From an uncultured Oscillospiraceae bacterium (GTDB taxonomy: Bacteria; Bacillota; Clostridia; Oscillospirales; Oscillospiraceae), in assembly GCA_934567355.1 (NCBI GenBank), contig CAKTJC010000023.1, forward strand, positions 1 through 44,990: a stretch of 44,990 nucleotides of DNA, read 5' to 3'. Made by a program: the position numbers and the translations under genes. Position 1 is the stretch's first letter; every line of letters begins with the position of its first letter. Shown here piece after piece: positions 18,255 through 40,389 of the stretch. The notes under the pieces were generated by a model that was not told where the DNA came from, ran no database searches, and saw nothing but the letters and a program-made list of their open reading frames with translations.

Positions 18255-18264
18255 GACGTTTACC

Positions 18265-18987: not shown

Positions 18988-19001
18988 GTTGTTCCTCCCT
19001 T

Positions 19002-19619
19002 TCATTTCTGTGGGGGCGTCTGCTGCACCAGGGCAGCGCACACCATTTCTGTGGCCTGGGGGAGCAGAACCCATTCCGCCTGCTCCATGACCCGGCGCTG
19101 CAAAATTTCGGGGGTATCTCCCGGGAGCACCTCCACCGCCTTCTGGGCGATGATTTCTCCTCCGTCGGGAATGGAATTGACAAAGTGGACGGTGGCACCG
19201 GTGACCTTTACGCCATATTGCAGGGCGGCCTGGTGTACCTTCAGCCCATAGAAGCCCTCTCCGCAGAAGCTGGGAATCAGGGCGGGGTGGATGTTGAGAA
19301 TCCGCCGGGGCCATTTGTCGGTGAAGTTGCCGGAGAGGATGGTCATAAAGCCCGCCAGCACAATCACGTCAATTTGATATTCCTCCAGAGTTTGCTGCAA
19401 GGCGCTTTCAAAGCCTGCCTGGCCGCCCAGCTGCTTTTTCAGCAGGGTAACGCCGGGGATTCCGGCGTTTTTCGCCCGCTCCAGGGCATAGGCTCCGGCA
19501 GCGTTGGAAACCACCAGGGCAATGGTGCCGCTGTGGAGGGTTCCTGCCTTCTGGGCATCTATCAGCGCCTGTAAATTGGTTCCGCCGCCGGAAACCAGTA
19601 CGGCAATCCGGGCGCTCAT
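19002..19619 (-). CDS. purN: Phosphoribosylglycinamide formyltransferase
   Basis: 205 residues. Typical N-terminus ARIAVLVSGGGTNLQALID (phosphate-binding GGGTNL), LAGFMTIL, the catalytic block ILNIHPALIPSF (Asn/His), and VHFVNSIPDGGEIIAQKAV (catalytic Asp region). It adds formyl from 10-formyl-THF to GAR (step 3). The ATG overlaps the purM stop by four bases (ATGA), so the two are translationally coupled. Confidence 0.95.
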   Translation of the reverse strand: MSARIAVLVSGGGTNLQALIDAQKAGTLHSGTIALVVSNAAGAYALERAKNAGIPGVTLLKKQLGGQAGFESALQQTLEEYQIDVIVLAGFMTILSGNFTDKWPRRILNIHPALIPSFCGEGFYGLKVHQAALQYGVKVTGATVHFVNSIPDGGEIIAQKAVEVLPGDTPEILQRRVMEQAEWVLLPQATEMVCAALVQQTPPQK

Positions 19620-20665
19620 TTCAAAATCACCTTTTCCTCACCCTGGGCAATGGTGCCGATTACATAGGCATCCTCGCCCTGCGCGGTGAGAATTTCCAGT
19701 GCCTTCTGGGCCTGGTAGGCGGGGACAACCACGCTCATGCCCACGCCCATGTTGAAGGTGTTGAACATATCCCGCTGGGGGATGCTGCCGGTTTGGGCAA
19801 TCAGCTGGAAGATGGGCAGAATGCGGATGGCGCTGCGGTCGATTTCGGCGCACAGACCGTCGGGGATGGAGCGGGGGATGTTCTCATAGAAGCCGCCGCC
19901 GGTGATGTGGCTGATGCCCTTCACGTCCACCTGCTCCAGCAGGGCCAGAATGCTCTTTACATAAATCCTGGTGGGGGTCAGCAGGGTTTCGGCAATGGAC
20001 TTGCCCCCCAGGAAATCGTTGGGCTTCATCAGCTCAGGATTGTTCTCCACATCAAAGACCTTACGCACCAGGCTGAAGCCGTTGGAGTGCACACCGGTGG
20101 AGGCCAGGGCAATCACCACATCTCCGGGAGCCATCCGGGAATTGTCGATGATTTTCTTTTTGTCCACAATGCCCACGGAGAATCCGGCCAGGTCATAGTC
20201 ATCCTCAGCCATCATGCCGGGGTGCTCGGCGGTCTCGCCGCCAATCAGGGCGGAGCCGGACTGAACGCAGCCCTCTGCCACACCGGCCACAATCTGGGCA
20301 ATCTTTTCGGGGATGTTCTTGCCGCAGGCGATATAGTCCAGGAAGAACAGGGGCCGGGCACCGCAGCAGATGACGTCGTTGACGCACATGGCAACACAGT
20401 CGATGCCAATGGTGTCGTGCTTGTCCAGCAGCTGGGCGATTCTCAGCTTGGTGCCCACGCCATCGGTGCCGGAGACCAGCACCGGCTCCTCCATGCCTGC
20501 AATGGGCAGACCAAAGCAGCCGCCGAAGCCGCCCACGTCATTCAGGCAGCCCTCGTTCTTGGTGCGGGCGATGTGCTTTTTCATCAGCTCTACGGCCCGG
20601 TAACCGGCGGTGATGTCCACACCGGCGGCAGCGTAGCTGGCAGATTGGGAGTTGTTGTGTTCCAT
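19616..20665 (-). CDS. purM: Phosphoribosylformylglycinamidine cyclo-ligase
   Basis: 349 residues (AIR synthetase, step 5). Blocks: SYAAAGVDITAG near the N-terminus, VSGTDGVGTKLRIA, CVNDVICCGARPLFFLDYIA, ALIGGETAEHPGMM, ASTGVHSNGFSLVRK and HITGGGFYENIPR. It joins FGAM to AIR with ATP. AAGGAG lies upstream of the start. 31 bases after purF. Confidence 0.96.
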   Translation of the reverse strand: MEHNNSQSASYAAAGVDITAGYRAVELMKKHIARTKNEGCLNDVGGFGGCFGLPIAGMEEPVLVSGTDGVGTKLRIAQLLDKHDTIGIDCVAMCVNDVICCGARPLFFLDYIACGKNIPEKIAQIVAGVAEGCVQSGSALIGGETAEHPGMMAEDDYDLAGFSVGIVDKKKIIDNSRMAPGDVVIALASTGVHSNGFSLVRKVFDVENNPELMKPNDFLGGKSIAETLLTPTRIYVKSILALLEQVDVKGISHITGGGFYENIPRSIPDGLCAEIDRSAIRILPIFQLIAQTGSIPQRDMFNTFNMGVGMSVVVPAYQAQKALEILTAQGEDAYVIGTIAQGEEKVILK

Positions 20666-20696
20666 ATTGTGACGCTCCTTTTATGATGTAGTGGGC

Positions 20697-22121
20697 TCAG
20701 CCCTTGCCGTTCCAGCAGTAGGTGCAGACGCATTCTTTGGGCAGGCCGATGGCCTCCAGGATGCCGTCCAGGGATTGGTATTCCAGGGAGGCAAAGTGCA
20801 GCTTTTCGCAGATGGCCCGGCGCATATTCTTGCCCCGCTGGGTGCTGCCGTCCATATATTCCTCCAGATGGTTCAGGCCCTCTTCTCCCTCCAGCTCCAG
20901 GATGGTGGCCCGGGCAATCAGCTCGTTTTCGGAGTTGGAGCGGGAGAAATTCAGGAACTTGCAGCCATAGAGAATGGGGGGACAGGCGCTGCGGATGTGC
21001 ACATCCTTGGCACCGTGCTCATACAGGAATTCAACGGTCTCCCGGAGCTGGGTGCCCCGCACCACGCTGTCGTCCACAAACAGCAGCTTCTTGTCCCGAA
21101 TCAGCTCGTCCACGGGAATCTGCTTCATTTTGGCCACCATATTCCGCTCGCTCTGGTTGGCGGGCATAAAGCTCCGGGGCCAGGTGGGGGTATACTTGAT
21201 GAAGGGGCGGGCAAAGGGAATGCCGCTTTCGTTGGCGTAGCCAATGGCGTGGGGGGTGCCGGAGTCCGGAACACCGGCCACATAGTCAATGTCCTGGGCC
21301 ACGCCGTTTTCCTTGTCCCGCTTGGCCATCAGCCGCCCGTTGCGGTAGCGCATGGCCTCTACGTTGCGGCCCTCGTAGCAGGCCGTGGGGTAGCCGTAGT
21401 AGGACCACAGGAAGGCGCAGATTTTCATGTCCTTCCGGGGCGGTGCCAGCTGGGTGATGCCCTCCGGGGAGATTTCCACGATTTCCCCCGGGCCCAACTC
21501 CCGAACCACCTCGTAGCCCAGCTTTTCACCGGCGTAATCCTCGAAGGTGACGGCGTAGCCGTCGGCATCCTTCTCAATGACAATGGGCAGTCGGCCCATT
21601 TTGTCCCGGGCGGCAATCAGGTGCCCGCCGTCCTTCATAATCAGAATGGAGGCGGTGCCCTCAATCATGTCCTGGGCATAGCGGATGCCGTCGGCGAAGC
21701 TGTCCTTCTGGTCGATGAAGGCGGCGATAAGCTCATTGGAATTCACCCGGCCGCCGGTCATACTGTCGAAGTGGCCGCCGGAGCTGTGCAGATGGGTCTG
21801 AATCAGAGCCTCTGCATTGTTGATGATGCCAATGGTGCAGATGGCGTAAACGCCCAGCCGGGAGCGAATCAGAATGGGCTGGGGGTCGGTGTCGGAAATG
21901 CAGCCGATGGCGGTGGTGCCGGTCATCTCGCTGACAATTCCCTCGAACTTGGTGCGGAAGGGGGAATTCTGAATATTGTGAATTTCCCGCTGCATTCCCA
22001 CGTCCTTGTCCCAGGCGGCCATGCCGCCTCGGCGGGTACCCAGGTGGGAATGGTAGTCCGTGCCGAAGAATACATCCAGAACACAGTTGCGGCGGGATGC
22101 AGCGCCAAAGAAACCACCCAT
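20697..22121 (-). CDS. purF: Amidophosphoribosyltransferase, variant without N-terminal Cys
   Basis: 474 residues. The Ntn-hydrolase-type domain starts MGGFFGAASRRNC, with TDYHSHLGTRRGGMAAWD next. In ordinary PurF the residue after the leader is the catalytic Cys of CG(V/I)FG; here the aligned residue is Gly. The PRTase domain is intact: KLLFVDDSVVRGTQL carries the PRPP-binding loop. C-terminal CTYCWNGKG resembles the CxxC of the Fe-S-containing Bacillus enzyme, and CPPILYGC could supply further ligands. The start at 22121 has a G-rich AAGGGGGG site, 13 bases after purE. It makes phosphoribosylamine from PRPP (step 1), probably with ammonia rather than its own glutamine hydrolysis, unless another residue takes over (inference). 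It could also be a regulatory paralogue. Confidence 0.9.
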   Translation of the reverse strand: MGGFFGAASRRNCVLDVFFGTDYHSHLGTRRGGMAAWDKDVGMQREIHNIQNSPFRTKFEGIVSEMTGTTAIGCISDTDPQPILIRSRLGVYAICTIGIINNAEALIQTHLHSSGGHFDSMTGGRVNSNELIAAFIDQKDSFADGIRYAQDMIEGTASILIMKDGGHLIAARDKMGRLPIVIEKDADGYAVTFEDYAGEKLGYEVVRELGPGEIVEISPEGITQLAPPRKDMKICAFLWSYYGYPTACYEGRNVEAMRYRNGRLMAKRDKENGVAQDIDYVAGVPDSGTPHAIGYANESGIPFARPFIKYTPTWPRSFMPANQSERNMVAKMKQIPVDELIRDKKLLFVDDSVVRGTQLRETVEFLYEHGAKDVHIRSACPPILYGCKFLNFSRSNSENELIARATILELEGEEGLNHLEEYMDGSTQRGKNMRRAICEKLHFASLEYQSLDGILEAIGLPKECVCTYCWNGKG

Positions 22122-22134
22122 GTGAAGTCCCCCC

Positions 22135-22629
22135 TTATTTACGCAGCTCCGCCTGTAGGGCGGCATCCTTGCTGAGTACCTTCTCGCTGTCGGCTGCCCG
22201 CTTGGCATCCAGCCGGGCGGCCAGAGCTTCATCGCCGACGGCCAGAATCTGGGCGGCAAGCAAAGCGGCATTGACACCCCCATTGATGGCAACAGTGGCT
22301 ACAGGAATGCCGGAGGGCATCTGGACTGTTGACAAAAGGGCGTCAATGCCGTCTAGAGTGGTGGATTTACAGGGAATCCCGATGACAGGAAGGGTAGAAT
22401 TGGCTGCAATGGCCCCAGCCAGGTGCGCAGCCATACCGGCTGCGGCAATGATTGCGCCGAAGCCGTTTGACCGGGCGTGCAGGGCGAATGCACGTGCCTG
22501 CTCCGGTGTGCGGTGGGCGGAATACACATGCGCTTCGTAGGGGATACCCAAAGCATCCAGGGTGTCCATGGCTTTGCGCAGAATTGGCAGGTCGCTGTCG
22601 CTGCCCATGATAATACCGACTTTTTTCAT
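22135..22629 (-). CDS. purE: N5-carboxyaminoimidazole ribonucleotide mutase
   Basis: 164 residues, class I PurE length. GIIMGSDSDLPIL at the N-terminus, HVYSAHRTPEQ (catalytic His), GMAAHLAGAIAANSTLPVIGIP and the C-terminal segment VAINGGVNAALLAAQIL. First gene of the purine operon, with AGGAGG seven bases upstream. No purK, purC or purB follows in this cluster; they must lie elsewhere or PurE may use bicarbonate-derived CAIR formed otherwise. Confidence 0.96.
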   Translation of the reverse strand: MKKVGIIMGSDSDLPILRKAMDTLDALGIPYEAHVYSAHRTPEQARAFALHARSNGFGAIIAAAGMAAHLAGAIAANSTLPVIGIPCKSTTLDGIDALLSTVQMPSGIPVATVAINGGVNAALLAAQILAVGDEALAARLDAKRAADSEKVLSKDAALQAELRK

Positions 22630-22947: not shown

Positions 22948-22976
22948 TTGAAATCGCATTTGGATTATGATATACT
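22948..22976 (+). promoter_or_regulatory. Promoter of the cobalamin-riboswitch operon
   Basis: TTGAAA (22948-22953), 17-base spacer, TATACT (22971-22976). Transcription would begin about 20-25 bases before the riboswitch. The stretch between this and the purine promoter (22785-22947) shows nothing else. Confidence 0.75.
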
Positions 22977-23000
22977 TACCCCGCATGGATATCTCCCGTG

Positions 23001-23142
23001 AAGTGAATATCAGCATCGGAATGAAGGAACCGTGTGAAAACCACGGACTGTAACGGCAACTGTAACGCAGAGTGACCCCCATTGTGCCACTGGGTGACTG
23101 GGAAGGCGGGGCGAGCGATGAAGCGGAGTCAGGATATTTCAT
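23001..23142 (+). promoter_or_regulatory. Cobalamin (B12) riboswitch
   Basis: Conserved core in order: GGAACCGTGTGAAAACCACGG, ACTGTAACGGCAACTGTAACG, TGCCACTGGGTGACTGGGAAGG, then GAAGCGGAGTCAGGAT, a B12-box variant. Outer ends TGAATATC and GATATTTCA can close stem P1. These are the hallmark blocks of cobalamin riboswitches. With the following terminator it should switch off the surface protein/transport operon when cobalamin is plentiful. Confidence 0.93.
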
Positions 23143-23193
23143 CCGGTGAATATGTTTCCGATTAAAACGCTTTGTGTTCTGAAAAAATACCGT

Positions 23194-23231
23194 CAGAGCA
23201 GCACGTTTGTGCTGCTCTGTTTATTTTTTCC
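23194..23231 (+). terminator. Expression-platform terminator of the B12 riboswitch
   Basis: 11-bp perfect stem CAGAGCAGCAC (23194-23204) with GTGCTGCTCTG (23209-23219), a 4-base loop and a T-rich tail. About 120 bases before the giant gene, consistent with transcriptional attenuation. Confidence 0.9.
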
Positions 23232-23352
23232 GGGAGAGGGCGTCACATTTGGGCGTTTTGCGTGAGATTTTCCCATGATAAATTTTGATCCCCGTTTTGT
23301 TTGCAGATAAATGCAGGCAAGAGCGGGAAATCATAACAGGAGGTAAGCGTGA

Positions 23353-26300
23353 ATGTCTAATCTACGGACGAGAATCCTTGCATTGCTGCTGGCGGTTTCT
23401 ATGTTGGTAGGCTATGTGCTCCCTGCCGCTGCTGAGGAATATCAGCCGGGCACGGAGATCACCGGCGAAGTAGAGCCGACGCCCGCCCCGGAGGAACCGG
23501 CAACAGAGCCGCCCACCGAGGCACCCACCCAGGCTCCGACCGAGCCTGCCACAGAGGCTCCTACCCAAGAGGTGACGGAGGCCCCTACGGCGGAAACCGA
23601 CCCGGTGGAGACTGAGCCGGAAGAGACCGATCCGGAAGAGACTAACCCGGAAGAAACTGAACCCGAAGAGACAGAGCCTGAAGAAACAGAGCCCGAGGAA
23701 GAGGAGAAGGAAGCTCCCTATCCCGAACCTGTGCTCTATTTTGCTGCCCCGGCAGAGGAATCTCTGGTTTATGGCATGAATGTTGTCAATCCCGGCACTT
23801 CCGACATCTGCTGGGATTTCCCCGTCAGCAGCGCTACTGCGGTTCGCTGCGGCGGTACGCTGTTTGCGACGCTGCGCGTGCCTACGTTCAGCCCCTATCG
23901 CTATCTGTATTTCGGCTCCCAGGCGGCGCTGGAAGAGCGGATGAGCCAGGGCGGCGCGTTCCCCGTGGCAGAGGGCGTGCTCAATAACGGCGAGCGGGTG
24001 TTCCATTTCACCATTGGCACGGCTGATAATTCCCGCATCACTGTGTGCCTGATCGCCCCGGATGCAACCCAGGAGAGCGGCTATCTGCTGAAGGAGCAGG
24101 AGCTGACCATTCCCTCCGTGCCTGTTGCGGATCTTGCGCTGTATGCAGATGATACTGACGAGACTGCCGTAGCCTCCGGTTTTCATGCGGTGGAGTATCC
24201 TGCTGCCCCGGAAGAAGAGCAGGATGTGAGCGGCAAGCTGTTTGTTGCCGAGCAGGGCACCAATAATATCTGCAGCATTTTCAAGATTGAGAAGGCAACT
24301 GCTGTCAAGGACGAGAACAATATTTATGTTACCGTCTATGTAACTCCCCCGGCCCGTACGATACTTACCTACGACTATCTGTACTTCGGCGACCTTACCG
24401 CGCTGAGAGAACAGCTGGAAGCGGGCGGCGGGCTCGATGTGGTTGGCAGTGAATCTGTTGAGCTTGAGGGATTGGGCGATAGACAGGTCTTCCACTTCAC
24501 GCTGCCTGCCACAGCGGCAGGAACCCGCGTCCCTGTCTGCATCCTTAAGAGCGACCTGACCGCGAGTGCCCCCTACAACTCCAGCGAACTGGAGCTGGTG
24601 GTTCCTGCCGACATTCAGGAGGTCGAGGTCAAGAAGGATCCCGTACCTACTCCTGTTTCCTACCCTGCCGCTCCCTTCAGCGAGCAGGATGTCAGCGGTC
24701 AGCTGTTTGTCGCCAAGCAGGGCGTAGATACGGTCTATACCATGTTTAATGTGAGCACTGCTACCGCGGTGAAGGACGATAAGAACATCTACGTCACCAT
24801 CCAGGTGAATCCCGCCGCCAGCGGCGCGTTCACCTATAGCTACCTGTATTTTGGCACCCGCACCGACCTGATTGCCCAGCTGGATGCGGGCGGAGAATTC
24901 GACGTTGTTGCGGGTGTAAACGGTAGCGCAACTCAAAGTTACCACTTTACGCTGCCGCTCAGTGCGGAGGGTACCTGCGTTCCCGTGTGCATTCTGAAGG
25001 GCGACCTGACTGCAAAGAGTCCTTATAATTCCAGTGAGCTGGAATTGATCGTTCCCGAGATCCCCGAGGGGAAGATCACACCTGTACCCACTCCCGTTTC
25101 TTATCCTGCCGCTCCCTTCGATGAGGAGGGCGTGACCGGCAAACTGTTCGTTGCCAAGCAGGGCGTAGATACGGTCTACACCATGTTCAATGTGAGCACT
25201 GCTACTGCAGTGAAGGACGATAAGAATATCTACGTTACTATCCAGGTAAATCCCGCTGCCAGCGGCGCGTTCACCTACAGCTATTTGTACTTCGGAACGA
25301 AGACAGAATTGGAAGCGCAACTGAAAGTTGATGGCCCGTTCGACGTGGTCGGCGGCGTGAATGGCGCAGACACTCAGAGCTATCACTTCACCCTGCCGCT
25401 CAGCACGGAGGGGACCCGCGTTCCCGTGTGCATCCTGAAGGGCGATCTGACCGCGAAGAGCCCCTATAACTCCAGTGAGCTGGAACTGGTTGTCCCTGAG
25501 ATCGCTGAGGGAAAGATCACCCCCGTGCCTACTCCTGTCACCTATCCGGATGCCCCCGGTGAAGAGCAGGATCTGACCGGTAAGCTGTTTGTGGCGAAAG
25601 CGGACGCGCCGACTACGGTGTATTCCATGTTCAAAGTGAGCACTGCCACTGCAGTGAAGGATGATAAGAACATCTACGTCACCATTCAGGTGAATCCCGC
25701 CGCCAGCGGCGCGTTCACCTACAGCTATCTGTACTTCGGAACGAAGACAGAATTGGAAGCCCAGCTGAAGATTAATGGCCCGTTCGATGTGGTTGGCGGC
25801 GTGAACGGCACGGCCACCCAGAGCTATCACTTCACGCTCCCCCTGAATGCGGAGGGGACCAATGTTCCTGTATGCATTCTGAAGAGTGACCTGACCGCGA
25901 AGAGTGCCTATAACTCCAGCGAGTTGGAGCTGGTGGTTCCTGCCGACATTCCTGAGGTCGAGGTCAAGAAGGATCCCGTCCCCACACCGGTCTCCTACCC
26001 CGCCGCACCTGCGGACGAGCAGGATGTCAGCGGCAAGCTCTTTGTCGCCAAGCAGGGTGCAGACGCGATCTACCCCATGTTCAAGATTGAGACTGCCACT
26101 GCGATTAAGGATGAGAACCTGATTTATGTCACCGTTCAGGTAAACAAAGCCGCCAGCGGTGCATTTACCTACAGCTATCTGTACTTCGGTACCCGCACGG
26201 CGCTGGTTGAGCAGCTGGATGCGGGCGGAGAATTCGGCGTTGTTGCCGGTGTGGCTGGCAGCGATACGCAGGCCTATCACTTCACGCTGCCCCTGAGTGC

Positions 26301-29300
26301 AGCCGGAACCCGTGTTCCCGTCTGCATTCTGAAGAGTGACCTGACCGCGAAGAGTGCCTATAACTCCAGCGAGCTGGAGCTAGTGGTTCCCGCCGACATT
26401 CCCGAGGTTGAGGTCAAGAAGGATCCCGTCCCCACACCGGTCTCCTACCCCGCCGCACCTGCGGAGGAGCGGGACATCACCGGCCTGACCGTTGTGGAGA
26501 AGGAGACGGACACGGCTTATGCCGATTTCCCCATCGCCTCCGCCGCCGGCATCAAGGTGGACGGTCAGCTGTACATCACCGCGCTGGTGAGTGCGAATAG
26601 TGAGGGCAGCTTCCCCTACAGCTACCTGTACTTCGGCACCAAGGCGCAGCTGGAAGAGCAGCTGAGCAAGGGCGGCGCGTTTGGCGTGGTGGCAGCCGTT
26701 GTCAACGGCCAGACCCAGCACTACCATTTCACTCTTTCCGCCGAGCAGGCGGACACCCGTATCCCCGTGTGCCTGCTGAAGGCCGACCTTACTGCTGAGA
26801 ATCCCTATAATGCCGCAGAGCTGGAGCTGGTGATCCCGGAGATCCCGGAGGAAACCGCCGAGGCTGCTCCGACAATTCCCGCTCTGCCCGATACCCTGAG
26901 CGAGGCGGGCATCAAGGTCATCAAGGTTGACGATGGCGCGGAATTCAAGATGTTTGCTGCCAGCAAGACCGGCATGGTCGTAGCGGGTGACAAGCTGCTG
27001 ATCCACTTCGAGACCACGAACACTTCCTATGATGCCCTTTACTTCGGCAGCAAAGAGGATGGCTTGAAGTCCCCCTATGTCCAGGGCGTCCAGAAGGATG
27101 GCGTCTGGGTATTCGAGTTTGAGCTGCCTGCCTCTTACCGGGGCGCGCAGAACCCCATCTGCCTGCGCAAGACCGACGGTACCTGGTACTCCAACAAGGA
27201 TCTGCTGATCTCCATTCCTGCCGATTCCGGCGACAGCGCCACGGTGAATGACGATGCGGGCGTCCAGATGTACCCCGTGGGTCAGTTCAGCCAGACCAGC
27301 TTTGCCGTCACCGCTTCCAGCGCCATGCTGCTGGGTGACCGGATTTATGTTACCATCACCGGCAAGATGGCCGAAAACGGAAAATATTCCGACAAGGTGG
27401 CCGGCATGCTGTACCTGGGCAGCCGGTACGATAAGGATAAGACCCCCTACATCACCGGCACCGTGAACGCCGACGGCACGACCACCTTCACCTTCACCGT
27501 CCCCGCCGATAAGCAGGGCACGTCTATCTGCGCAGTGGTGGGCTTTGCCGACGGAAGCTGGGATCCCACCAACCTGGACTTCTTCCTGAATATCCCCAAT
27601 TTCGGCAGAAGCTTTGACCTGAGCTACTACACCGACGGCGTGTATGATCTCTACGGCAACGCCTATGCCTACCTGGACAAGGCGGACAGAAGGAGCCTGC
27701 CCTTCGACGTCGGCTCGACCCTGACCGTCTCCGGCAACCAGATCACCATCAAGTGGGTCACCCGCGGCAACGATACCGATAAGCTTTACTTCGGCCTGCA
27801 GACCGATGACAAGGCGACCCGGGAGGCACAGTCCGTCCTTGCGGTTGACTGCACCGATAACCCGGATACGCCCGACTACAAGGTGTTCTATGTCACCCTG
27901 CCCAAGAGCGCTTTGGGCACCAGGATCCCCTTTGTGCGGCATTCCCGCCTGTGGTGGACGGATACCGACGGCTGGCTGGAGTCTCAGGACTATGTGATTT
28001 TCTCTGATTATCTCCCCAGAACCTCTGACAAGCCCGATGACGGCACCACCATCGACGATGCCGGCATGAAGATGCTCTCAGGCGGCAGTGAAGTGGAGCA
28101 GATGTTTGTTATCACCGCTTCCTCCGCTACCCTGAAGGGTGATACCATCACCTGCACCATCACCGGCAAACCTGCCGGGCGTAACAGCGGCACGGCGGAT
28201 AAGCTGTATCTGGGCAGCCGCGACGATGCAGACAAGAGTAATTTTATCGTTGGAACACTCAATGACGACGAAACCACCACCTTTGTCTTTGACGTCCCGG
28301 CTGAAAAGCAGGGAACCTCCATCCCCGTAGTGGTCAGCTTTACCGGCAGCGGCTGGGATACCACACAGGATTATTTCCTGAATATCCCCGATTTCGGCAC
28401 CAGCTTTGATTTGAGTTACTATACCGATGGTGTGTATGACCTCTACGGCAATTCCTACGCCGAACTGAGCCGGACGCAGAACAAGGCTTTCCCCGTGGAT
28501 AAGGGCTCTACCCTGTCCGTTGCCGGCAACAAGATCGTGATTAAGTGGGTGACCCGTACCGGCTCCTACGACAAGCTGTATTTCGGCTCCGCTTCTGATG
28601 ATGAGGAGACCCGGAATGCAGGCGCGGTGGAGATCGAGGATTACGCAGGGGAGGCAACCTGGAAGGTCTACACAGTCACCCTGCCCAAGAGCGCACTGAG
28701 CGCACGCATCCCCTTCGCCCGCCATTCGACCAAGTGGTACACGGCCACCAACGGCTGGCTGACCACCCAGGATTACCTGGTGCTGGCGAACCGCCTGCCC
28801 AAGCTCTCCGATACCCCCGATGTTCCCGTAGACCCCACCGATCCTACCGACCCCAGCGAGCCCAGCGGCGAGATCAGTGACGGCACCTACAACACCACCG
28901 GCGAAACCGGCGCATCCATGTTTAAGGTGGTCAAGGCTGTGCTGGATGCCAGCGGCGGCAAGTATAAGGTGACCCTGACTCTCAGCGGCACCGGCTATGA
29001 TTATCTGTGCCCCGGCACCGGTGCGGACGCTGAAGCGAATCAGAGCAAGTGGGCGCCTGCCAAGGTGGTCAACTGTACCATCAACGGCGAAACAAAGGAC
29101 TGGTACACCTACACCTTCGAGGTGGAGGACCCCACCAAGCCCATCCCTGTTGCATCCCACAGCAAGAAAAATAACCAGTGGTATGACCGTACCGTCACTC
29201 TGGATACTGCAAACCTGAAGAGAACTGCCAAGGACGGCAGCTACCAGGTCACTACCGAATGCGATGCGGCCATGTTCCGCATCATTGACGCCAAGCTGAA

Positions 29301-31410
29301 GATCGTCAACGGCCAGATCATGGCAGACATTACCCTGAGCGGCCAGGGCTACGACTATCTGTATCCCGGCACCGGCGCACAGGCGGATGCTGAAACAGAC
29401 AAGGCCAACTGGGCCCCCTTCCGTGTGAATGAGGATGGCAAGTATGTTTATACCATTCCCATTTCCGCACTGGATGAGTTTATTCCCATTGGCTCTCACA
29501 GCTCGGCGAAGAATCAGTGGTTTGACCGCAGCGTCAAGTTCCTGTCCAACTCCCTGGTGGCAATCGGCGGTACCGATCCCACGGATCCGACTACCCCGAC
29601 CACACCCACCGATCCCACGGATCCGACTACCCCGACTACGCCTACCGATCCCACCACGCCTACGACTCCGGTAACGCCCACCGATCCGACGGATCCCAGC
29701 GATCCCACGGAAGAGCCCACCGTGCCCTCTGAGCCCGATCTGGACGGTTCCACCACCGTGGTGGACAACTCCACCGGCCTGAAGGACGGCACTTATACCC
29801 CGGATGGCTTCTCCTTCTCCGGCGGCACCGGCAAGACCCGGATCGTATGCGATAAGATAATCGTGAAGGGCGGCAAGTCCTTTGCAGTGATCCGTTTCGT
29901 CAGCACCACCGGCAGTCCCTCTGCCTACAAGTACGTCAAGGCCTCTGGCGGCGTGTATTATCCCACGGCCAGCGGCGCCTTTACGATCCCTGTGGCGCTG
30001 AACAAGAACAACCGTATCCTTGGTATGACCACCAAGATGACTGCGGCACACGAGATCAAGTATATACTTTTTGTTCAGTTGAAGAACGCTAAACCCAGTG
30101 ATCCTACTGATCCTACTGACCCTACTGACCCGGATGATGGCGGCACGACGTCTGCGGTGGATAATTCCACCAACTTGAAGGACAAAGATGGCTACAAGCC
30201 TGACAGTGTTACCTCCTCTGGCGGTACAAATGGGACGAAAGTCATCTGTGACAAGGTGATCGTAAAGGGTGGCAAGTCCTATGCAGTGATCAAAATCGTT
30301 GATGCGTCCGGTAACGTGGTGGCGCATGAGTATGTTAAGGCCTCCGGTGGTAAGTATGACCCGGCAAGCAATGGGACATTTACGATCCCGGTTAAACTAA
30401 ATGCGGAAAACCGCATTCTCGCGAAGCCGGTGGGAGAAGATGCTGACGAGGTTGAATACAAGATTAACATAAAGGTAAAAGGAGCCTCTTCCGGCGGTAG
30501 TAGCACTCAGACTGAGGAAGAGAAAGAGGAAGACGATCCTGATTCCAAGCTGGATAAGCAGGCACCGGAGATCCTGGGCCTGGAATTCAAGGAGCTTATC
30601 GCAACGCCCGGTGCCCGTTACCTCAAACTCTTCCAGTATGACCAGGGTGTTGTCCTGGCAGAGGTGGATCTGCGGCGGGATACCGTCCTGGATACCGACG
30701 AGGCCATTGAAGAACTGGCGCAGGCCGATAAGGCTGCCAAGGAAGCCCAGGGCGAGACTGCCGACGTGCAGTCCGATGAGCCGACAGACAACGCACAGAT
30801 CACTGCGGACTACATCGCGGAGCTTTATCAGAAGGATATTCTGAAATATCTGCTGGTGCCCGAGGATGTGGAGCTGCCCGCCGGCCTGGAAAAGCAGTAT
30901 CTGATCGTCCATGTGCCTGCCTCCAATGTCTACCTGATGGATGAAGATCTGGGCGATACCCTGAAGGCGCTGGACGTGCTGAATTCCGTCACCATCCTCG
31001 GCTCCGACGCATGCGAAGACGATGTGATCCAGGAGCTGCTGGAGAGCGGCGAAGCCGTCTACGGCGGCACCTGGGAGAAGCCGGACTACCGTACCCTGAT
31101 CCGTGCAAAGATGGGCATGGGCCTGATGAGCTCCGATCTGCTGCCTCTGAGTGAGGAGACCCTGAAGGAGCGCAAGGAGGACATCCCACAGCGCGAAGCA
31201 CTGACCGCAGTGGAGTACCGCGACCGCATGACCAAGCTGACCGAGCGCTTCGCCGTCCTGGGTGTTCCCATGCTGGTGGATCGCGCTGCCGATGAGCCCA
31301 CAGCCAAGGGCCAGGCCGCGTGGCTGAAGCTCTATGGCCTGCTGTACGGCAAGGAAACGCAAGCCAATAAGCTCTACGACGCTGCCATTGCGAAGGAGGA
31401 GAAAGCATGA
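23353..31410 (+). CDS. Giant secreted repeat protein, B12-riboswitch controlled
   Basis: 2,685 residues. AGGAGG lies nine bases before the ATG. Signal peptide 1-27 (cleavage after LPAAA); acidic Pro/Thr/Glu linker about 30-120. Then one divergent and six closely similar modules of about 148 residues (starting near 127, 281, 437, 583, 731, 881 and 1031), each with YPAAP..EQDVSG, a YLYFG motif, and a final VPVCIL-type strand. Next are related modules about 1177-2070, with the duplicated pair SYYTDGVYDLYGN near 1424 and 1689 and YDYL.PGTG/NQWYDR modules near 1841 and 1961. A TDPTTP linker (about 2074-2130), two VKGGKS modules (2142 and 2267) and a charged linker follow. The C-terminal domain (about 2395-2685) resembles the N-terminal half of the next gene's binding protein. 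No LPxTG, membrane anchor or lipobox. The modules look like small beta-sandwiches and recall NEAT-type ligand-capture domains (inference). Likely role: surface capture of corrinoids for the following ABC importer. Confidence 0.85.
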   Translation: MSNLRTRILALLLAVSMLVGYVLPAAAEEYQPGTEITGEVEPTPAPEEPATEPPTEAPTQAPTEPATEAPTQEVTEAPTAETDPVETEPEETDPEETNPEETEPEETEPEETEPEEEEKEAPYPEPVLYFAAPAEESLVYGMNVVNPGTSDICWDFPVSSATAVRCGGTLFATLRVPTFSPYRYLYFGSQAALEERMSQGGAFPVAEGVLNNGERVFHFTIGTADNSRITVCLIAPDATQESGYLLKEQELTIPSVPVADLALYADDTDETAVASGFHAVEYPAAPEEEQDVSGKLFVAEQGTNNICSIFKIEKATAVKDENNIYVTVYVTPPARTILTYDYLYFGDLTALREQLEAGGGLDVVGSESVELEGLGDRQVFHFTLPATAAGTRVPVCILKSDLTASAPYNSSELELVVPADIQEVEVKKDPVPTPVSYPAAPFSEQDVSGQLFVAKQGVDTVYTMFNVSTATAVKDDKNIYVTIQVNPAASGAFTYSYLYFGTRTDLIAQLDAGGEFDVVAGVNGSATQSYHFTLPLSAEGTCVPVCILKGDLTAKSPYNSSELELIVPEIPEGKITPVPTPVSYPAAPFDEEGVTGKLFVAKQGVDTVYTMFNVSTATAVKDDKNIYVTIQVNPAASGAFTYSYLYFGTKTELEAQLKVDGPFDVVGGVNGADTQSYHFTLPLSTEGTRVPVCILKGDLTAKSPYNSSELELVVPEIAEGKITPVPTPVTYPDAPGEEQDLTGKLFVAKADAPTTVYSMFKVSTATAVKDDKNIYVTIQVNPAASGAFTYSYLYFGTKTELEAQLKINGPFDVVGGVNGTATQSYHFTLPLNAEGTNVPVCILKSDLTAKSAYNSSELELVVPADIPEVEVKKDPVPTPVSYPAAPADEQDVSGKLFVAKQGADAIYPMFKIETATAIKDENLIYVTVQVNKAASGAFTYSYLYFGTRTALVEQLDAGGEFGVVAGVAGSDTQAYHFTLPLSAAGTRVPVCILKSDLTAKSAYNSSELELVVPADIPEVEVKKDPVPTPVSYPAAPAEERDITGLTVVEKETDTAYADFPIASAAGIKVDGQLYITALVSANSEGSFPYSYLYFGTKAQLEEQLSKGGAFGVVAAVVNGQTQHYHFTLSAEQADTRIPVCLLKADLTAENPYNAAELELVIPEIPEETAEAAPTIPALPDTLSEAGIKVIKVDDGAEFKMFAASKTGMVVAGDKLLIHFETTNTSYDALYFGSKEDGLKSPYVQGVQKDGVWVFEFELPASYRGAQNPICLRKTDGTWYSNKDLLISIPADSGDSATVNDDAGVQMYPVGQFSQTSFAVTASSAMLLGDRIYVTITGKMAENGKYSDKVAGMLYLGSRYDKDKTPYITGTVNADGTTTFTFTVPADKQGTSICAVVGFADGSWDPTNLDFFLNIPNFGRSFDLSYYTDGVYDLYGNAYAYLDKADRRSLPFDVGSTLTVSGNQITIKWVTRGNDTDKLYFGLQTDDKATREAQSVLAVDCTDNPDTPDYKVFYVTLPKSALGTRIPFVRHSRLWWTDTDGWLESQDYVIFSDYLPRTSDKPDDGTTIDDAGMKMLSGGSEVEQMFVITASSATLKGDTITCTITGKPAGRNSGTADKLYLGSRDDADKSNFIVGTLNDDETTTFVFDVPAEKQGTSIPVVVSFTGSGWDTTQDYFLNIPDFGTSFDLSYYTDGVYDLYGNSYAELSRTQNKAFPVDKGSTLSVAGNKIVIKWVTRTGSYDKLYFGSASDDEETRNAGAVEIEDYAGEATWKVYTVTLPKSALSARIPFARHSTKWYTATNGWLTTQDYLVLANRLPKLSDTPDVPVDPTDPTDPSEPSGEISDGTYNTTGETGASMFKVVKAVLDASGGKYKVTLTLSGTGYDYLCPGTGADAEANQSKWAPAKVVNCTINGETKDWYTYTFEVEDPTKPIPVASHSKKNNQWYDRTVTLDTANLKRTAKDGSYQVTTECDAAMFRIIDAKLKIVNGQIMADITLSGQGYDYLYPGTGAQADAETDKANWAPFRVNEDGKYVYTIPISALDEFIPIGSHSSAKNQWFDRSVKFLSNSLVAIGGTDPTDPTTPTTPTDPTDPTTPTTPTDPTTPTTPVTPTDPTDPSDPTEEPTVPSEPDLDGSTTVVDNSTGLKDGTYTPDGFSFSGGTGKTRIVCDKIIVKGGKSFAVIRFVSTTGSPSAYKYVKASGGVYYPTASGAFTIPVALNKNNRILGMTTKMTAAHEIKYILFVQLKNAKPSDPTDPTDPTDPDDGGTTSAVDNSTNLKDKDGYKPDSVTSSGGTNGTKVICDKVIVKGGKSYAVIKIVDASGNVVAHEYVKASGGKYDPASNGTFTIPVKLNAENRILAKPVGEDADEVEYKINIKVKGASSGGSSTQTEEEKEEDDPDSKLDKQAPEILGLEFKELIATPGARYLKLFQYDQGVVLAEVDLRRDTVLDTDEAIEELAQADKAAKEAQGETADVQSDEPTDNAQITADYIAELYQKDILKYLLVPEDVELPAGLEKQYLIVHVPASNVYLMDEDLGDTLKALDVLNSVTILGSDACEDDVIQELLESGEAVYGGTWEKPDYRTLIRAKMGMGLMSSDLLPLSEETLKERKEDIPQREALTAVEYRDRMTKLTERFAVLGVPMLVDRAADEPTAKGQAAWLKLYGLLYGKETQANKLYDAAIAKEEKA
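24196..26880 (+). repeat. Six tandem ~445-bp coding repeats
   Basis: Units begin near 24196, 24661, 25101, 25543, 25993 and 26443 at 440-465 bp spacing. The middle units share long near-identical DNA stretches (for example around AAGAACATCTACGTCACCAT). This suggests recent duplication or gene conversion and likely copy-number variation between strains. The outer units are more diverged. Confidence 0.85.
29569..29712 (+). repeat. Thr-Asp-Pro/Thr-Pro linker repeats
   Basis: Short tandem units of CCCACGGATCCGACTACC type encode T-D-P-T-D-P-T-T-P spacers between module 14 and the VKGGKS modules of the giant protein. A shorter version lies near 30094-30140 and another near 28830. Confidence 0.8.
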
Positions 31411-32561
31411 AGAATTACATGAAGCGGGCGATTGCGCTGCTGCTGGTGCTTGCCATGCAGTGCGCCCTCTTCGGCGGGGGCTGGGCTACGACCCAGGCCT
31501 CGGCTGACGCCCCACTTACCAAAGCACCTGAGATCCCCGGCCTGACCTTTGTTGAGAAGACGGAACTGACCTATGCCCAGTGCTTCAGCCTTTTCCGCTA
31601 CGAAGGCGGATATACCCTGATCTCCGTTCAGGATGACGGTGAATTCCTGGTCGTCCCCGAGGACGGCCAGGTGCCGGACGGCCTGGATGACTCCATCGTG
31701 GTGCTTCAGCAGCCCATGAACCGGATGTATTTGGCCGCCACCTCGGCAATGGCGCTGTTTGCAGCCATCGACGCAGTGGACAGCATCCGACTCACCGGCA
31801 CCAGGGCCTCCGGCTGGTATGTAGATGCCGCTATCGAGGCGCTGGAGTCCGGCTCAATGCTCTTCTCCGGCAAGTACAGCGAACCGGACTACGAGCTGAT
31901 GATCGGCGAGGACTGCGACCTGGCCATTGAGTCCACCATGATCCATCATACCCCCAAGGTTCGTGAGATGATCCAGGACCTGGGCATTCCCGTCATGATC
32001 GACTGCTCCAGCTATGAGCCCCACCCCCTGGGCCGAACCGAGTGGGTCAAGCTCTACGCAGCAATCGTCGGCAAGGAAGCCGAAGCGGAAGCGTTCATGG
32101 AAAAGCAGAGTGCACTGGCCAATTTCGAGGATACCGGCAAGACCATCGCCTTCTTCTATATCAACACCGATGGCTCCGTGGTGATCCGCAAGCCCACCGA
32201 TTACATCCCTAAAATGCTCTCTCTGGCGGGCGGCCATTACGTCTATGAGCATCTGGCAGATGATGAGAAGGCAAGCTCCGTTTCCTCCGTGACCATGGAA
32301 GATTTCTATAACACGGCAGTGGATGCCGATATGCTGATCTACAATGCAGCCATTGTGGCACCCATCTCCTCGATTGATGAGCTGATCGCAAAGGACAGCC
32401 TGTTCGCTGACTTCAAGGCGGTGAAAGAGGGCAACGTCTGGTGCACCGGCAAGTCCTATTTCCAGGCGACGGATACCGTGGGCGAAATGATCCGTGATGT
32501 TCATACGGCCCTGACCGGCGGCGACGAGAGCCAGATGACCTTCCTGTACCGGGTGTTCTGA
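31407..32561 (+). CDS. Periplasmic-binding-type protein for the FecCD importer (BtuF-like fold)
   Basis: 384 residues. The start overlaps the giant gene's stop by four bases (ATGA). The signal-like N-terminus MKNYMKRAIALLLVLAMQC has no proper lipobox (AMQC), so it may be cleaved after QASA near residue 34 or kept as a membrane anchor. The mature part has an N-lobe (about 40-195: PEIPGLTFVEKTELTYAQCF, LVVPEDGQVP, NRMYLA, SIRLTG, EALESG, GKYSEPDYELMI), a linking helix, and a C-lobe (about 225-384: KTIAFFYINTDGSVVIRKPTDYIPKMLSLAGG). This fits the type III (helical backbone) binding fold of B12/siderophore/heme systems. The N-lobe resembles the end of the giant protein. It likely presents the ligand to the permease. 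Confidence 0.82.
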   Translation: MKNYMKRAIALLLVLAMQCALFGGGWATTQASADAPLTKAPEIPGLTFVEKTELTYAQCFSLFRYEGGYTLISVQDDGEFLVVPEDGQVPDGLDDSIVVLQQPMNRMYLAATSAMALFAAIDAVDSIRLTGTRASGWYVDAAIEALESGSMLFSGKYSEPDYELMIGEDCDLAIESTMIHHTPKVREMIQDLGIPVMIDCSSYEPHPLGRTEWVKLYAAIVGKEAEAEAFMEKQSALANFEDTGKTIAFFYINTDGSVVIRKPTDYIPKMLSLAGGHYVYEHLADDEKASSVSSVTMEDFYNTAVDADMLIYNAAIVAPISSIDELIAKDSLFADFKAVKEGNVWCTGKSYFQATDTVGEMIRDVHTALTGGDESQMTFLYRVF

Positions 32562-32562
32562 G

Positions 32563-33639
32563 ATGATCAAACGCAATTCTGTCGATATGTCTGCGGCGTA
32601 TGCCGCAGACTATCGGGGGATCAACGCGCGCCGCAGAGCGCGCTACGCGCTGGTGTTTCTTCTGCTGGCTGCGGCTTTCTGCACCATTACCGTGCTGAAT
32701 ATCAATATTGGCAATGTGCCGATCCCGGTAAAAACCATCATCAAGATCATTTTTACCAAAACCGGCACAGCCAAAGAAGTGAACATCATCTGGAAGATTC
32801 GGCTTCCCCGTATCCTGATGGCGGCGCTGCTGGGCGGCGCGCTGTCTCTGTCCGGTTTCCTGCTGCAGACCTTCTTTGAAAATCCCATTGCAGGACCCTT
32901 TGTGCTGGGTATTTCCAGCAGCGCCAAAATGGCGGTGGCTTTCACCATGATCGGACTGATCGAGATGTTCGGAAGCGTTTCCTCCTATGCGCTGATCGGC
33001 GCGGCCTTTATCGGCTCGCTTATTTCAGTGGGCTTTATCCTGCTGTTTTCCAGACGCATCCGCGGCATGTCCACACTGCTGGTTGCGGGCATTATGATCG
33101 GCTATATCTGCACGGCGATCACGGATTTTGCCGTGACCTTTGCGGCGGATTCCGATATCATCAACTTGCACAATTGGTCAAAGGGCAGCTTTTCCGGTAC
33201 GAATTGGAGTAATGTGGGCGTAGCGGGAATCGTAGTAGGCATCACCTCGGTGATCACATTCTTTATGGCAAAGCCCATCAGTGCCTATCAGCTGGGCGAG
33301 AGCTATGCTCAGAGCATGGGTGTGAACATCAAGGTGTTCCGCACGGCGCTGATCATTCTGTCCAGTGTCCTTTCGGCAACGGTCACGGCTTTTGCAGGCC
33401 CGATTTCCTTTGTGGGCATTGCGGTGCCCTTCCTGGTCAAGCGGTTCCTGAATACCTCCAAGCCCCTGGTGGTCATCCCGGCTACCTTCCTGGGCGGCGG
33501 TGTATTCTGCATGCTGTGTGACCTGATCGCCCGCACAGCCTTCCCGCCCACGGAACTGAACATCAGCACGGTCACGTCCCTTTTTGGCGCGCCCATTGTG
33601 ATTTATATGATGCTGCACAGGAAAGGACGGCGGGATTAA
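32563..33639 (+). CDS. FecCD-family ABC permease (BtuC-like)
   Basis: 358 residues, about ten membrane helices. Family blocks: NIIWKIRLPRILMAALLGGALSLSG (the R-LPR block), LLQTFFENPIAGPFVLGISSSAK, LLVAGIMIGYICTA, AYQLGESYAQSMGVNIK (ATPase-coupling loop) and AFAGPISFVGIAVPFLVKRFL. FecCD permeases import vitamin B12, heme or ferric siderophores; the upstream B12 riboswitch favours a corrinoid. Starts one base after the binding-protein stop and ends one base before the ATPase gene. Confidence 0.92.
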   Translation: MIKRNSVDMSAAYAADYRGINARRRARYALVFLLLAAAFCTITVLNINIGNVPIPVKTIIKIIFTKTGTAKEVNIIWKIRLPRILMAALLGGALSLSGFLLQTFFENPIAGPFVLGISSSAKMAVAFTMIGLIEMFGSVSSYALIGAAFIGSLISVGFILLFSRRIRGMSTLLVAGIMIGYICTAITDFAVTFAADSDIINLHNWSKGSFSGTNWSNVGVAGIVVGITSVITFFMAKPISAYQLGESYAQSMGVNIKVFRTALIILSSVLSATVTAFAGPISFVGIAVPFLVKRFLNTSKPLVVIPATFLGGGVFCMLCDLIARTAFPPTELNISTVTSLFGAPIVIYMMLHRKGRRD

Positions 33640-33640
33640 G

Positions 33641-34759
33641 ATGGCAGAAACCTATTTTGAAACCCGCAGCCTTACCATTGGCTACCATGGCACGCCGGTC
33701 ATCCGGGATATTTCCCTGAAGATCCGCAAGGGTGAGATCGTCGCCCTGATCGGCCCGAACGGTGCGGGCAAATCTACCTTTCTGAAAACGGTTGTCCGGG
33801 ATCTTCCAATTATTTCCGGTGAGGTGCTGCTGGAGGGAAGACCGATTCAGTCCTATTCCTACCATGATCTTTCCAAAATCATGGCTGTCATTCTGACAGA
33901 GCGGATCAAGGTAGAGCTGACCACCTGCCGGGATATTGTGGCCACCGGCCGCTACCCCTATACCGGCCGCCTGGGTGTTCTGCGCCCGGAGGACGAGAAA
34001 GCGGTGGACGAAGCCATGGAGACGGTGCACGCCCTCGACCTGAGCGAGCGCGACTTCACTGCCATCAGTGACGGACAGCGGCAGCGGATCCTGCTGGCCC
34101 GAGCCATCTGCCAGGAGCCGGAGCTGATTTTGCTGGATGAGCCTACCTCCTTCCTGGATGTGCGGCACAAGCTGGATCTGCTCTCTATTCTCACCCGCAT
34201 GGCGCGGAAGAAAAACATCACCGTGATCATGTCCCTTCACGAGATCGACCTGGCGGAGAAGGTGGCAGATAAGATCATCACCGTCAAGGGAGATACGCTC
34301 TTCGGCTGCGGTGCGCCTGCTGAAATCTTTGATGAAGACAGGATCCGCCGGCTGTACGACATTGAAAACGGCTTCTTTGACCCCCTCTTCGGCAGTATTG
34401 AGCTGAAAAAGCCCAGCGGGGAAACGCCTGAGGTGTTTGTCCTGGCCGGGGCAGGGGAGGGGATCGAGGTATACCGGCAGCTTCAGCGGGAGAACATCCC
34501 CTTTGCCACCGGTATCCTGTATGACAACGACCTGGATTACCGCCTGGCGCGTCTGCTGGCGGCGGCGGTTTTTTCTGTCCCGGCTTTTGCAGAGATCACC
34601 CAGGCAGACTATGGCAGGGCGCTGGAAGCCATGCGCCGCTGCAAAAAAGTTATTCTGGCGGGAACACGTTCTCAGATTCCCAACGCCCCGCTGCTGGAAA
34701 AGGCGAGGGAACTGGATATCCCCGTCCTGAACGGATTGCGGGAGGAGGCGGCGCTGTGA
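33641..34759 (+). CDS. FecE/BtuD-type ABC ATPase with C-terminal extension
   Basis: 372 residues. ATPase core about 1-250: Walker A GPNGAGKST near residues 38-46, Q-loop region near AVILTERIK (no obvious Q), signature ISDGQRQRILLARA (LSGGQ altered to ISDGQ), Walker B LILLDEPTSFLD and the H-loop SLHEIDLAEK. A further ~115 residues (about 255-372) form a separate alpha/beta segment starting EVFVLAGAGEGIEVYRQL and containing KVILAGTRSQIPN near its end; its role is unknown. Ends by overlapping cbiL by four bases. Energises the FecCD permease. Confidence 0.9.
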   Translation: MAETYFETRSLTIGYHGTPVIRDISLKIRKGEIVALIGPNGAGKSTFLKTVVRDLPIISGEVLLEGRPIQSYSYHDLSKIMAVILTERIKVELTTCRDIVATGRYPYTGRLGVLRPEDEKAVDEAMETVHALDLSERDFTAISDGQRQRILLARAICQEPELILLDEPTSFLDVRHKLDLLSILTRMARKKNITVIMSLHEIDLAEKVADKIITVKGDTLFGCGAPAEIFDEDRIRRLYDIENGFFDPLFGSIELKKPSGETPEVFVLAGAGEGIEVYRQLQRENIPFATGILYDNDLDYRLARLLAAAVFSVPAFAEITQADYGRALEAMRRCKKVILAGTRSQIPNAPLLEKARELDIPVLNGLREEAAL

Positions 34760-35445
34760 CGGCAGGAACCTTTTATGCAGTCGGTGTCGGCCCCGGTGAT
34801 CCGGAGCTGCTGACCCGCAAAGCGGCAGCTGTGTTGGAAAGCTGCCCGGTGATCGCGGCACCCAGAGTGTCCTCCGGCGAAATGCTGGCGCTGAAAATTG
34901 CCGCCGGTGCAGTGGATCTGAGCGGAAAGGAAATCCTGCCGCTGACGTTTGCCATGGCCAGAGAGAAGTCGGTTCGCGCAGCCGGATACACCGCCGCAGC
35001 GGACTGCATTGCACAGTATCTGGATCTTGGCCGGGATGTGGCGATGGTGAACTTGGGAGATGTTTCCATCTACGCCACCGCGTACTACGTCCTTGATGAG
35101 CTGCGCCGCCGGGGCTTTGAGACCCAAATGATTCCCGGAATTCCCAGCTTCTGCGCCGTAGCGGCTGCCTTGGGCAGGAGCCTGACAGGGCCGGATGAAC
35201 CCCTGCACATCATTCCGGCAGGGGAGACGGACCTGGATGCTGCGCTTGCGATGCCGGGTACCAAGGTCCTTATGAAGTCCGGCCGCTCCATGCCTGCCAC
35301 CGCCGCTGCACTGGCACGCGCCGGCGTGGCACAAAAGAGCGCAATGGTTGCCGATTGCGGCCTCCCCACCGAGCAGGTTTTCCATTCTATGGAAGATTTG
35401 CCGGAAGAGATCAGCTATTTTGCAACCGTGATTGTCCCTGAATAA
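34756..35445 (+). CDS. cbiL: Precorrin-2/cobalt-factor II C20-methyltransferase homologue
   Basis: 229 residues with a GTG start overlapping the ATPase stop (GTGA). Tetrapyrrole methylase fold: N-terminal FYAVGVGPGDPELLTRKA (SAM-binding P-loop-like GVGPGDPELLT), then NLGDVSIYATAYYVLDELRRRG and MIPGIPSFCAVAAALGRSL. These blocks match CbiL/CobI. It methylates C20 of cobalt-factor II or precorrin-2 in corrin synthesis. It is the only corrin biosynthesis gene in the window and is in the same B12-controlled transcript as the importer. This either reflects one piece of a dispersed pathway or a repurposed enzyme. Confidence 0.88.
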   Translation: MTAGTFYAVGVGPGDPELLTRKAAAVLESCPVIAAPRVSSGEMLALKIAAGAVDLSGKEILPLTFAMAREKSVRAAGYTAAADCIAQYLDLGRDVAMVNLGDVSIYATAYYVLDELRRRGFETQMIPGIPSFCAVAAALGRSLTGPDEPLHIIPAGETDLDAALAMPGTKVLMKSGRSMPATAAALARAGVAQKSAMVADCGLPTEQVFHSMEDLPEEISYFATVIVPE

Positions 35446-35451
35446 TCCCGT

Positions 35452-35498
35452 ATCCGGCAGTACCTGAGACTGCCGGATTTGGTTGTTTGAGGTTTTTT
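35452..35498 (+). terminator. Intrinsic terminator of the B12-regulated operon
   Basis: 9-bp stem ATCCGGCAG (35452-35460) with CTGCCGGAT (35470-35478), 9-base loop, then interrupted T-rich sequence TTGGTTGTTTGAGGTTTTTT. Confidence 0.75.
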
Positions 35499-35526: not shown

Positions 35527-35555
35527 TTGACAAAATAGCTATTCCTAATTATAAT
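35527..35555 (+). promoter_or_regulatory. Consensus promoter of the TetR-ribD_C pair
   Basis: Perfect TTGACA (35527-35532), 17-base spacer, perfect TATAAT (35550-35555). The AT-rich stretch up to 35585 could hold the regulator's own operator, but no clear palindrome was identified. Confidence 0.83.
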
Positions 35556-40146: not shown

Positions 40147-40223
40147 GGACGATTAGCTCAGCTGGCTAGAGCATCCGCTTGACGTGCGGAAGGTCATAGG
40201 TTCGAGTCCTATATCGTCCACCA
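40147..40223 (+). tRNA. tRNA-Val (anticodon GAC)
   Basis: 77 bases including encoded CCA. Acceptor GGACGAT/ATCGTCC, D-arm TAGCTCAGCTGGCTAGAGC, anticodon stem TCCGC/GCGGA with loop TTGACGT (GAC reads Val GUC/GUU), T-arm around GGTTCGAGTCC. The 3' end is partly duplicated at 40362-40383. Confidence 0.96.
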
Positions 40224-40226
40224 GTT

Positions 40227-40258
40227 AAGTACCACTCACCTGGGTGGTACTTTTGATT
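40227..40258 (+). terminator. Terminator of tRNA-Val
   Basis: 9-bp stem AAGTACCAC (40227-40235) with GTGGTACTT (40244-40252), then TTGATTT. Confidence 0.8.
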
Positions 40259-40323
40259 TACTTGGATGTTTTGCTCAGCCAGCCTCGAGCCCATCTAAAA
40301 GCGACATGCTGGTAGCATGTTGT

Positions 40324-40356: not shown

Positions 40357-40361
40357 GAAAA

Positions 40362-40383: not shown

Positions 40384-40389
40384 AAGATG

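Follow-up and report, generated by a model that had tools for sequence, protein, structure and literature searches.

The window analyzed here is a 44,990-nucleotide stretch of DNA from an uncultured Oscillospiraceae bacterium (GenBank assembly GCA_934567355.1, contig CAKTJC010000023.1, positions 1 to 44,990 of the forward strand). On its plus strand lies an operon in which a cobalamin riboswitch precedes the genes of a giant secreted protein and of an ABC importer. The operon opens with a sigma-70-like promoter (22948-22976; TTGAAA-17-TATACT with TG before the -10 element), a consensus match only, agreeing at 10 of 12 positions. Such sites are more frequent in the scanned stretch than expected (14 found versus 6.1 expected), as are terminator-like sites (18 versus 10.4), which are likewise consensus matches only. 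The cobalamin riboswitch aptamer (RF00174; 22968-23158) covers positions 1-189 of the 189-position covariance model and scores 63 bits (E = 2.3e-13), over a gathering score of 31.5 bits. On its 3' side is a terminator-like element (23194-23229) consisting of an 11-pair stem (23194-23219) and a T-rich tail. Five genes follow: the open reading frame of the giant protein (2,685 residues; 23353-31410), a 384-residue substrate-binding protein (SBP) (31407-32561; Peripla_BP_2, 3e-31), a FecCD permease (32563-33639; FecCD, 8.7e-75), an ABC ATPase with a C-terminal extension (33641-34759; ABC_tran, 3.5e-30), and cbiL, encoding a precorrin-2/cobalt-factor II C20-methyltransferase (34756-35445; TP_methylase, 3.2e-44). 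The last assignment is further reflected in the match to TIGR01467 (cobI_cbiL), whose 194.9 bits exceed the curated cut-off of 163.25. Single bases separate SBP from permease and permease from ATPase, 4-base overlaps join giant to SBP and ATPase to cbiL, and a terminator-like stem (35452-35478) closes the operon. Promoter, riboswitch, terminator, the five genes and the closing terminator, with these gaps and overlaps, all lie where an earlier reading of the bare sequence (the original prediction) had placed them.

The giant protein is built from modules, which we delimited with seeds cut from the window giant (P0001) and run across its relatives. A signal peptide, recognized by eye, and an acidic linker of P, T and E are followed by seven A modules, the series P-Q-R-Q-R, two C modules, two D modules and a terminal segment, S. 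The seven A-type NEAT-like modules (residues 128-1162; 23734-26838) share 48-82% DNA identity in pairwise comparison. P-Q-R-Q-R (residues 1189-1820; 26917-28812) are NEAT-like by profile only, matching A and C at 96.1-99.2% in hhalign, and the two C-type NEAT-like modules come next (residues 1840-2072; 28870-29568). By profile comparison A, P, Q, R and C are mutually homologous (96.1-99.8%), and D stands apart, reaching 65% at best, to C. The first of the two D modules (residues 2142-2390; 29776-30522) contains Cys2166, Met2229 and His2233, all three invariant across the 41 rows of alignment A3; the second (30175-30522) keeps the Cys, has lost the otherwise invariant Met and His, and is perhaps a degenerate copy. 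S (residues 2412-2685; 30586-31407) aligns to residues 48-233 of the SBP encoded next (hhalign 99.4%, E = 1.1e-21, 184 columns), and so amounts to about half an SBP encoded just before a complete one. This half SBP, the D domain and a sister system carrying the cobaltochelatase CbiK, described below, go beyond what the original prediction saw.

A protein search with the giant returned 83 proteins (P0006-P0088) at E <= 0.001. One of them, P0006, is identical to the window giant and perhaps has the same source; the rest are diverged. All 82 proteins from P0006 to P0087 end in S, mostly in the order A-P-(Q-R)-C-D-S, with an additional D module in P0021 and between zero A modules (P0084-P0087, which start P-Q-P-Q-R) and nine (P0010). 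The remaining match, P0088 (3,746 residues, E = 2.7e-6), gave no module row and is the one of the 83 without S.

The surroundings of the giant gene recur as well. Scanning public genome contigs with two peptide patterns yielded 45 loci, of which L036 and L037 lie on the same contig (44 contigs in all). By their titles these belong to Lachnospiraceae and other Clostridia and include the named strains Coprococcus comes MSK.16.63, Fusicatenibacter saccharivorans D41t1_190614_C8 and [Ruminococcus] faecis JCM 15917. Over 44 loci (all but L037), the giant has an SBP gene as neighbor in 41 cases, a FecCD permease gene in 38 (in L038 on its upstream side) and an ATPase gene in 36. All three SBP misses (L006, L011 and L042), and four of the six permease misses (these loci and L020), occur at or near a contig edge. 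Rfam models were applied to 38 loci; the seven omitted were L037 and those starting within or at the giant (L014, L030, L033, L041, L043 and L044); L018 and L022 also begin at the giant, which leaves 36 loci testable for an upstream riboswitch. In 35 of these 36, RF00174 precedes the giant on its strand, at no more than 500 bases in 23; in the remaining loci it lies 2.0-5.2 kb off, with C-, D-, CbiK- or transporter-type genes in between. A cbiL gene stands at the operon end in the window and in L001 (genome G001), whose giant matched that of the window best in the contig scan; strong cbiL matches occur in 6 of the 44 loci, and the cbiL of L004 has its own riboswitch. Given that diverged relatives share the gene order and the riboswitch in other genomes, the arrangement is more than chance, and the order riboswitch-giant-SBP-FecCD-ATPase is conserved, in support of the original prediction.

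The giant could also be read as an adhesin or structural rod that merely shares its operon with the transporter, the latter taking up B12 alone. The number of A modules varies among relatives as in repeat adhesins, and the long P/T-rich linkers also fit this reading. Nevertheless, the giant keeps its position by the SBP and the half SBP is present in 82 of 83 proteins; C and D are also found in short proteins, and two loci (L090 and L094) encode D joined to a complete SBP. Homologues regularly found beside unrelated adhesion genes without the transporter would, by its own terms, have refuted the original prediction, and the searched genomes did not show them. We therefore regard a purely adhesive or structural giant as very improbable.

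The repeated modules resemble domains known from heme capture. Structures were modeled for two of them, A6 (mean predicted local distance difference test score 94.9) and C2; both models have the NEAT beta-sandwich fold, and a structure search matched NEAT domains, heme-binding ones at the top. The C profiles, compared with 13 NEAT domains above the Pfam cut-off, scored 91.9% and 95.9% over 81-84 columns, the last strand excluded. Compared directly with the same 13 domains, A, P, Q, R and D reached merely 0.4-24.5%; the A, P, Q and R profiles match C at 96.1-96.6%. Models and profiles thus suggest that A6 and C2 share the NEAT fold and that the other modules (A, P, Q and R) are their kin. No Pfam family matched the giant itself above its cut-off, and PF05031 (NEAT) had no match in P0001 at E <= 1, the gathering score not being reached. 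Seventeen of the 83 relatives carry a precomputed PF05031 label; five of these, when rescanned, scored 24.9-35.6 bits, only P0084 exceeding 32.8.

The fold raises the alternative that the operon takes up heme by an Isd-like relay and has come under a B12 riboswitch by chance. Beyond the fold and its heme-binding top matches, this reading can call on the SBP, whose best, if weak, NCBIfam model is that of the heme-binding protein IsdE (18.6 bits versus a cut-off of 298.65). The heme-ligating motif YXXXY is absent from the last strand of C2 (residues 2055-2070) and of A6 (residues 1008-1011), strands being assigned by DSSP, and all 15 YXXXY matches in P0001 lie outside these two strands. This absence is not evidence against heme, because the available text of a 2014 survey reports that no NEAT domain in its Clostridial Group has the motif (PMC4143258).

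The giant loci stand out by their link to the riboswitch. We compared FecCD genes within 18 whole genomes, reached via 18 loci and not independent of each other, which together hold 82 riboswitches and 46 FecCD genes over cut-off. Counting riboswitches up to 12 kb upstream on the gene's own strand, 18 of 18 giant-linked FecCD genes have one versus at least 5 of 28 others (Fisher p = 2.4e-8), the second count being a lower bound, and the case for a B12 role to that extent weaker, because in 17 of the 18 genomes scoring covered only 81 first-look riboswitch candidates. NEAT domains over the Pfam cut-off are found in 7 of 146 genomes of the order to which G011, a Coprococcus comes genome, belongs. 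Comparing coordinates by eye, we found no RF00174 beside the NEAT loci of these seven; the nearest case is G158, where a riboswitch shares the contig with the NEAT locus at a distance of 31 kb and on the opposite strand. The B12 link therefore marks the giant's family and not the sampled NEAT domains generally. Together with a riboswitch upstream of the giant in all but one of the 36 testable loci, the corrin genes in some of those operons and a corrinoid-type ATPase as best model, this makes heme uptake a rather improbable function for the system.

We instead favor, as the probable reading, a B12-repressed operon that acquires corrinoids, be they finished cobamides, incomplete corrinoids or a close cobalt-tetrapyrrole precursor. 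Riboswitch and transporter linkage, the NEAT fold and the corrin genes in some loci all support this reading, as do the importer proteins: the best-ranked NCBIfam model is BtuC for the permease (195.4 bits) and the corrinoid ABC transporter ATPase PRK09536 for the ATPase (203.7 bits, residues 8-345). At low intracellular cobalamin, the riboswitch would allow transcription to pass through the terminator. A signal peptide would export the giant, whose rod of 14 NEAT-fold modules would capture a tetrapyrrole and move it toward the cell; next, the D domain and the C-terminal half SBP, placed by the SBP or the permease, would hand the cargo on. FecCD and the ATPase would then import it, with CbiL connecting the operon to corrin synthesis. 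Linkage supports the operon's regulation and its membership in the pathway; we infer the identity of the ligand, the relay between modules and its direction, the docking of the half SBP, the surface location and the repression of this operon by B12.

Several observations weigh against this reading. Both importer matches fall below their curated cut-offs (334 bits for BtuC and 537 bits for PRK09536), the SBP ranks IsdE first, and the NEAT domains among the PDB matches bind heme or hemoglobin. Two loci, L030 and L040, show no permease in the available locus sequence, and the exception among the testable loci, L011, has no riboswitch in its 1.4 kb of upstream sequence. In four of the 18 genomes the giant system is accompanied by further riboswitch-linked FecCD genes without a giant (five in all), suggesting that plain B12 uptake is perhaps already covered there; the two kinds of importer in one genome may carry different corrinoids. 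Finally, the giant has no C-terminal LPXTG sortase signal, the pattern LPxT[GAS] occurring only at residues 384 and 1554 of 2,685, which leaves its anchoring without explanation. By eye, the window SBP has no clear lipobox, in contrast to the SBP of L001, which has LGAC; our guess from this difference is that the half SBP perhaps also helps to keep the parts of the system together.

The nature of the cargo is put in another light by a compact sister system, found in loci L078-L097 (for example L078:2284-4035 and L086:464-6949), in which a riboswitch is accompanied by a signal-bearing CbiK and a NEAT-like C or C-D protein. Many of these loci also carry SBP, FecCD and ATPase genes. Among the 20 sister loci, which were chosen from earlier matches mostly for a known nearby riboswitch, CbiK precedes or is fused to the C protein in 19, L096 being the exception. 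Five of ten sister-locus proteins scanned match PF06180, the family of the class II cobaltochelatase CbiK, at 233.9-255.9 bits. They differ from that enzyme in having an N-terminal signal with a lipobox pattern and in preceding NEAT-like and SBP genes. In the alignment of these 19 CbiK proteins a Cys occupies the lipobox position throughout, and all share the same His, Glu and Asp positions, including the motifs TH..(M)..G.EY and GDHA.ND, whose conserved His we take to belong to the chelatase active site; the lipobox pattern itself lies near the start in 17 of 19, some starts being over-extended. In L086 and L087 the ATPase gene is followed by genes that we read by eye, without a family search, as cbiA, cbiC, cbiD, cbiF, cbiG and cbiH. 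The signal-bearing protein is the sole CbiK over cut-off in 13 of the 20 genomes (G008, G011, G014, G036, G093, G101, G136, G152, G154, G170, G195, G234 and G272), where CbiX matches fall inside the same gene or are absent, and where G195 has a second, sub-threshold CbiK match. Nine of these 13 also have a CbiL over cut-off. The other seven genomes have a second CbiK. The window's own operon has no CbiK gene, and G001 gave no match to CbiK or CbiX.

With a chelatase that bears an export signal, the cargo is possibly a precursor, either a cobalt-tetrapyrrole or one of corrin synthesis, instead of finished B12. Under this alternative, a metal-free or cobalt-loaded precursor such as sirohydrochlorin would be bound; in the sister systems an extracytoplasmic CbiK would load or swap cobalt, the NEAT-like protein would carry the product to the SBP, and the product would enter at the CbiL step. 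The pairing of CbiK with the C protein, its shared lipobox Cys and motifs, its status as sole CbiK in genomes that mostly have CbiL, the corrin genes of L086 and L087, and the cbiL that closes the operon in the window and L001 all fit. On the other hand, the genome of the window's best match lacks a CbiK or CbiX match, seven genomes have a second CbiK, and chelatases of the CysG/SirC type, outside the scope of the CbiK and CbiX searches, could insert cobalt inside the cell. In addition, the single-CbiK counts come from genomes of unstated completeness, the loci were picked mostly for their riboswitch, and CbiK is perhaps merely a binding protein. We hold this route to be unlikely, though it is a serious rival. 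It bears on the original prediction that the giant catches corrinoids at the Gram-positive surface and hands them inward, in functional parallel to the NEAT/Isd relay. That picture has gained a conserved arrangement and a shared predicted fold, the comparison of module structures it proposed having returned NEAT matches, and it has lost ground to a precursor as cargo. The observation is thus firmer than before in fold and conservation, and weaker in that corrinoid binding is still a step we infer.

Several known systems offer points of comparison. The Isd importer pairs a binding protein with a FecCD-type permease. Like the Isd/NEAT heme relay (IsdA, IsdB, IsdC and IsdH with IsdEF; IsdX1/IsdX2; Hbp2; Shp), the giant system would place tandem NEAT-fold modules outside a Gram-positive cell, and it has a binding protein and a FecCD-type importer. 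Unlike that relay, it has a cobalamin riboswitch, corrin genes in some operons and a terminal half SBP, and the window giant shows neither a sortase tail nor a Pfam NEAT match. BtuCDF carries corrinoids in other prokaryotes, and the likeness to it comprises SBP, permease and ATPase, the best-ranked models and riboswitch control; the sub-cut-off scores set the window proteins apart, and to our knowledge no NEAT-fold partner belongs to BtuFCD. A further parallel is the extracellular B12 capture reported for gut Bacteroides, where, as the available portions of the papers describe, the surface proteins BtuG, BtuH and BtuJ (DUF4465) serve an importer (PMC6143338, PMC10404256, PMC13398666) and the loci lie under cobamide riboswitches (PMC8941943). 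According to the same portions, BtuG1 is a beta-propeller and BtuJ1 a beta-jellyroll at a Gram-negative outer membrane, in contrast to the giant (PMC8941943, PMC13398666). The available text of PMC8941943 also describes btuH homologues from three species of Firmicutes, with an energy-coupling factor (ECF)-type cobamide transporter near one of them, so that extracellular B12 binding has already been suggested there, by another protein. By titles and the beginnings of abstracts among the matches listed, from a coverage that excludes most subscription journals, no NEAT-fold protein has been described in a cobalamin regulon, and the words cobalamin and B12 are absent from the main text, as available, of the NEAT survey PMC4143258.

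The NEAT design may thus serve Gram-positive gut bacteria in the capture of B12-like molecules. Should the modules prove to bind corrinoids, the fold would not be confined to heme, and Pfam's name for the domain, "Iron Transport-associated domain", would mislead where these species are concerned. A working signal-bearing CbiK, for its part, would mean that cobalt may be inserted outside the membrane, a step we do not know from the corrin pathway. A more speculative and doubtful scheme would have the NEAT fold move from the heme to the B12 pathway as a riboswitch-controlled relay, with an extracytoplasmic cobaltochelatase in the sister form possibly metallating a corrin precursor outside, and the half-SBP dock and FecCD feeding the CbiL step.

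The operon has distinct neighbors on both sides. Divergent from it, on the minus strand (11981-22629), lie purine synthesis genes, including those of a 1,298-residue FGAR-AT-like protein and an AIR carboxylase. Downstream, a promoter with perfect sigma-70 consensus (TTGACA-17-TATAAT; 35527-35555) precedes a TetR_C_33 regulator gene at 35594. The right end of the window (40147-44942), which carries a serine recombinase gene (43446-44942, minus strand) and a DUF4368 piece (42709-43434) with two tRNA genes near, is perhaps a mobile element.

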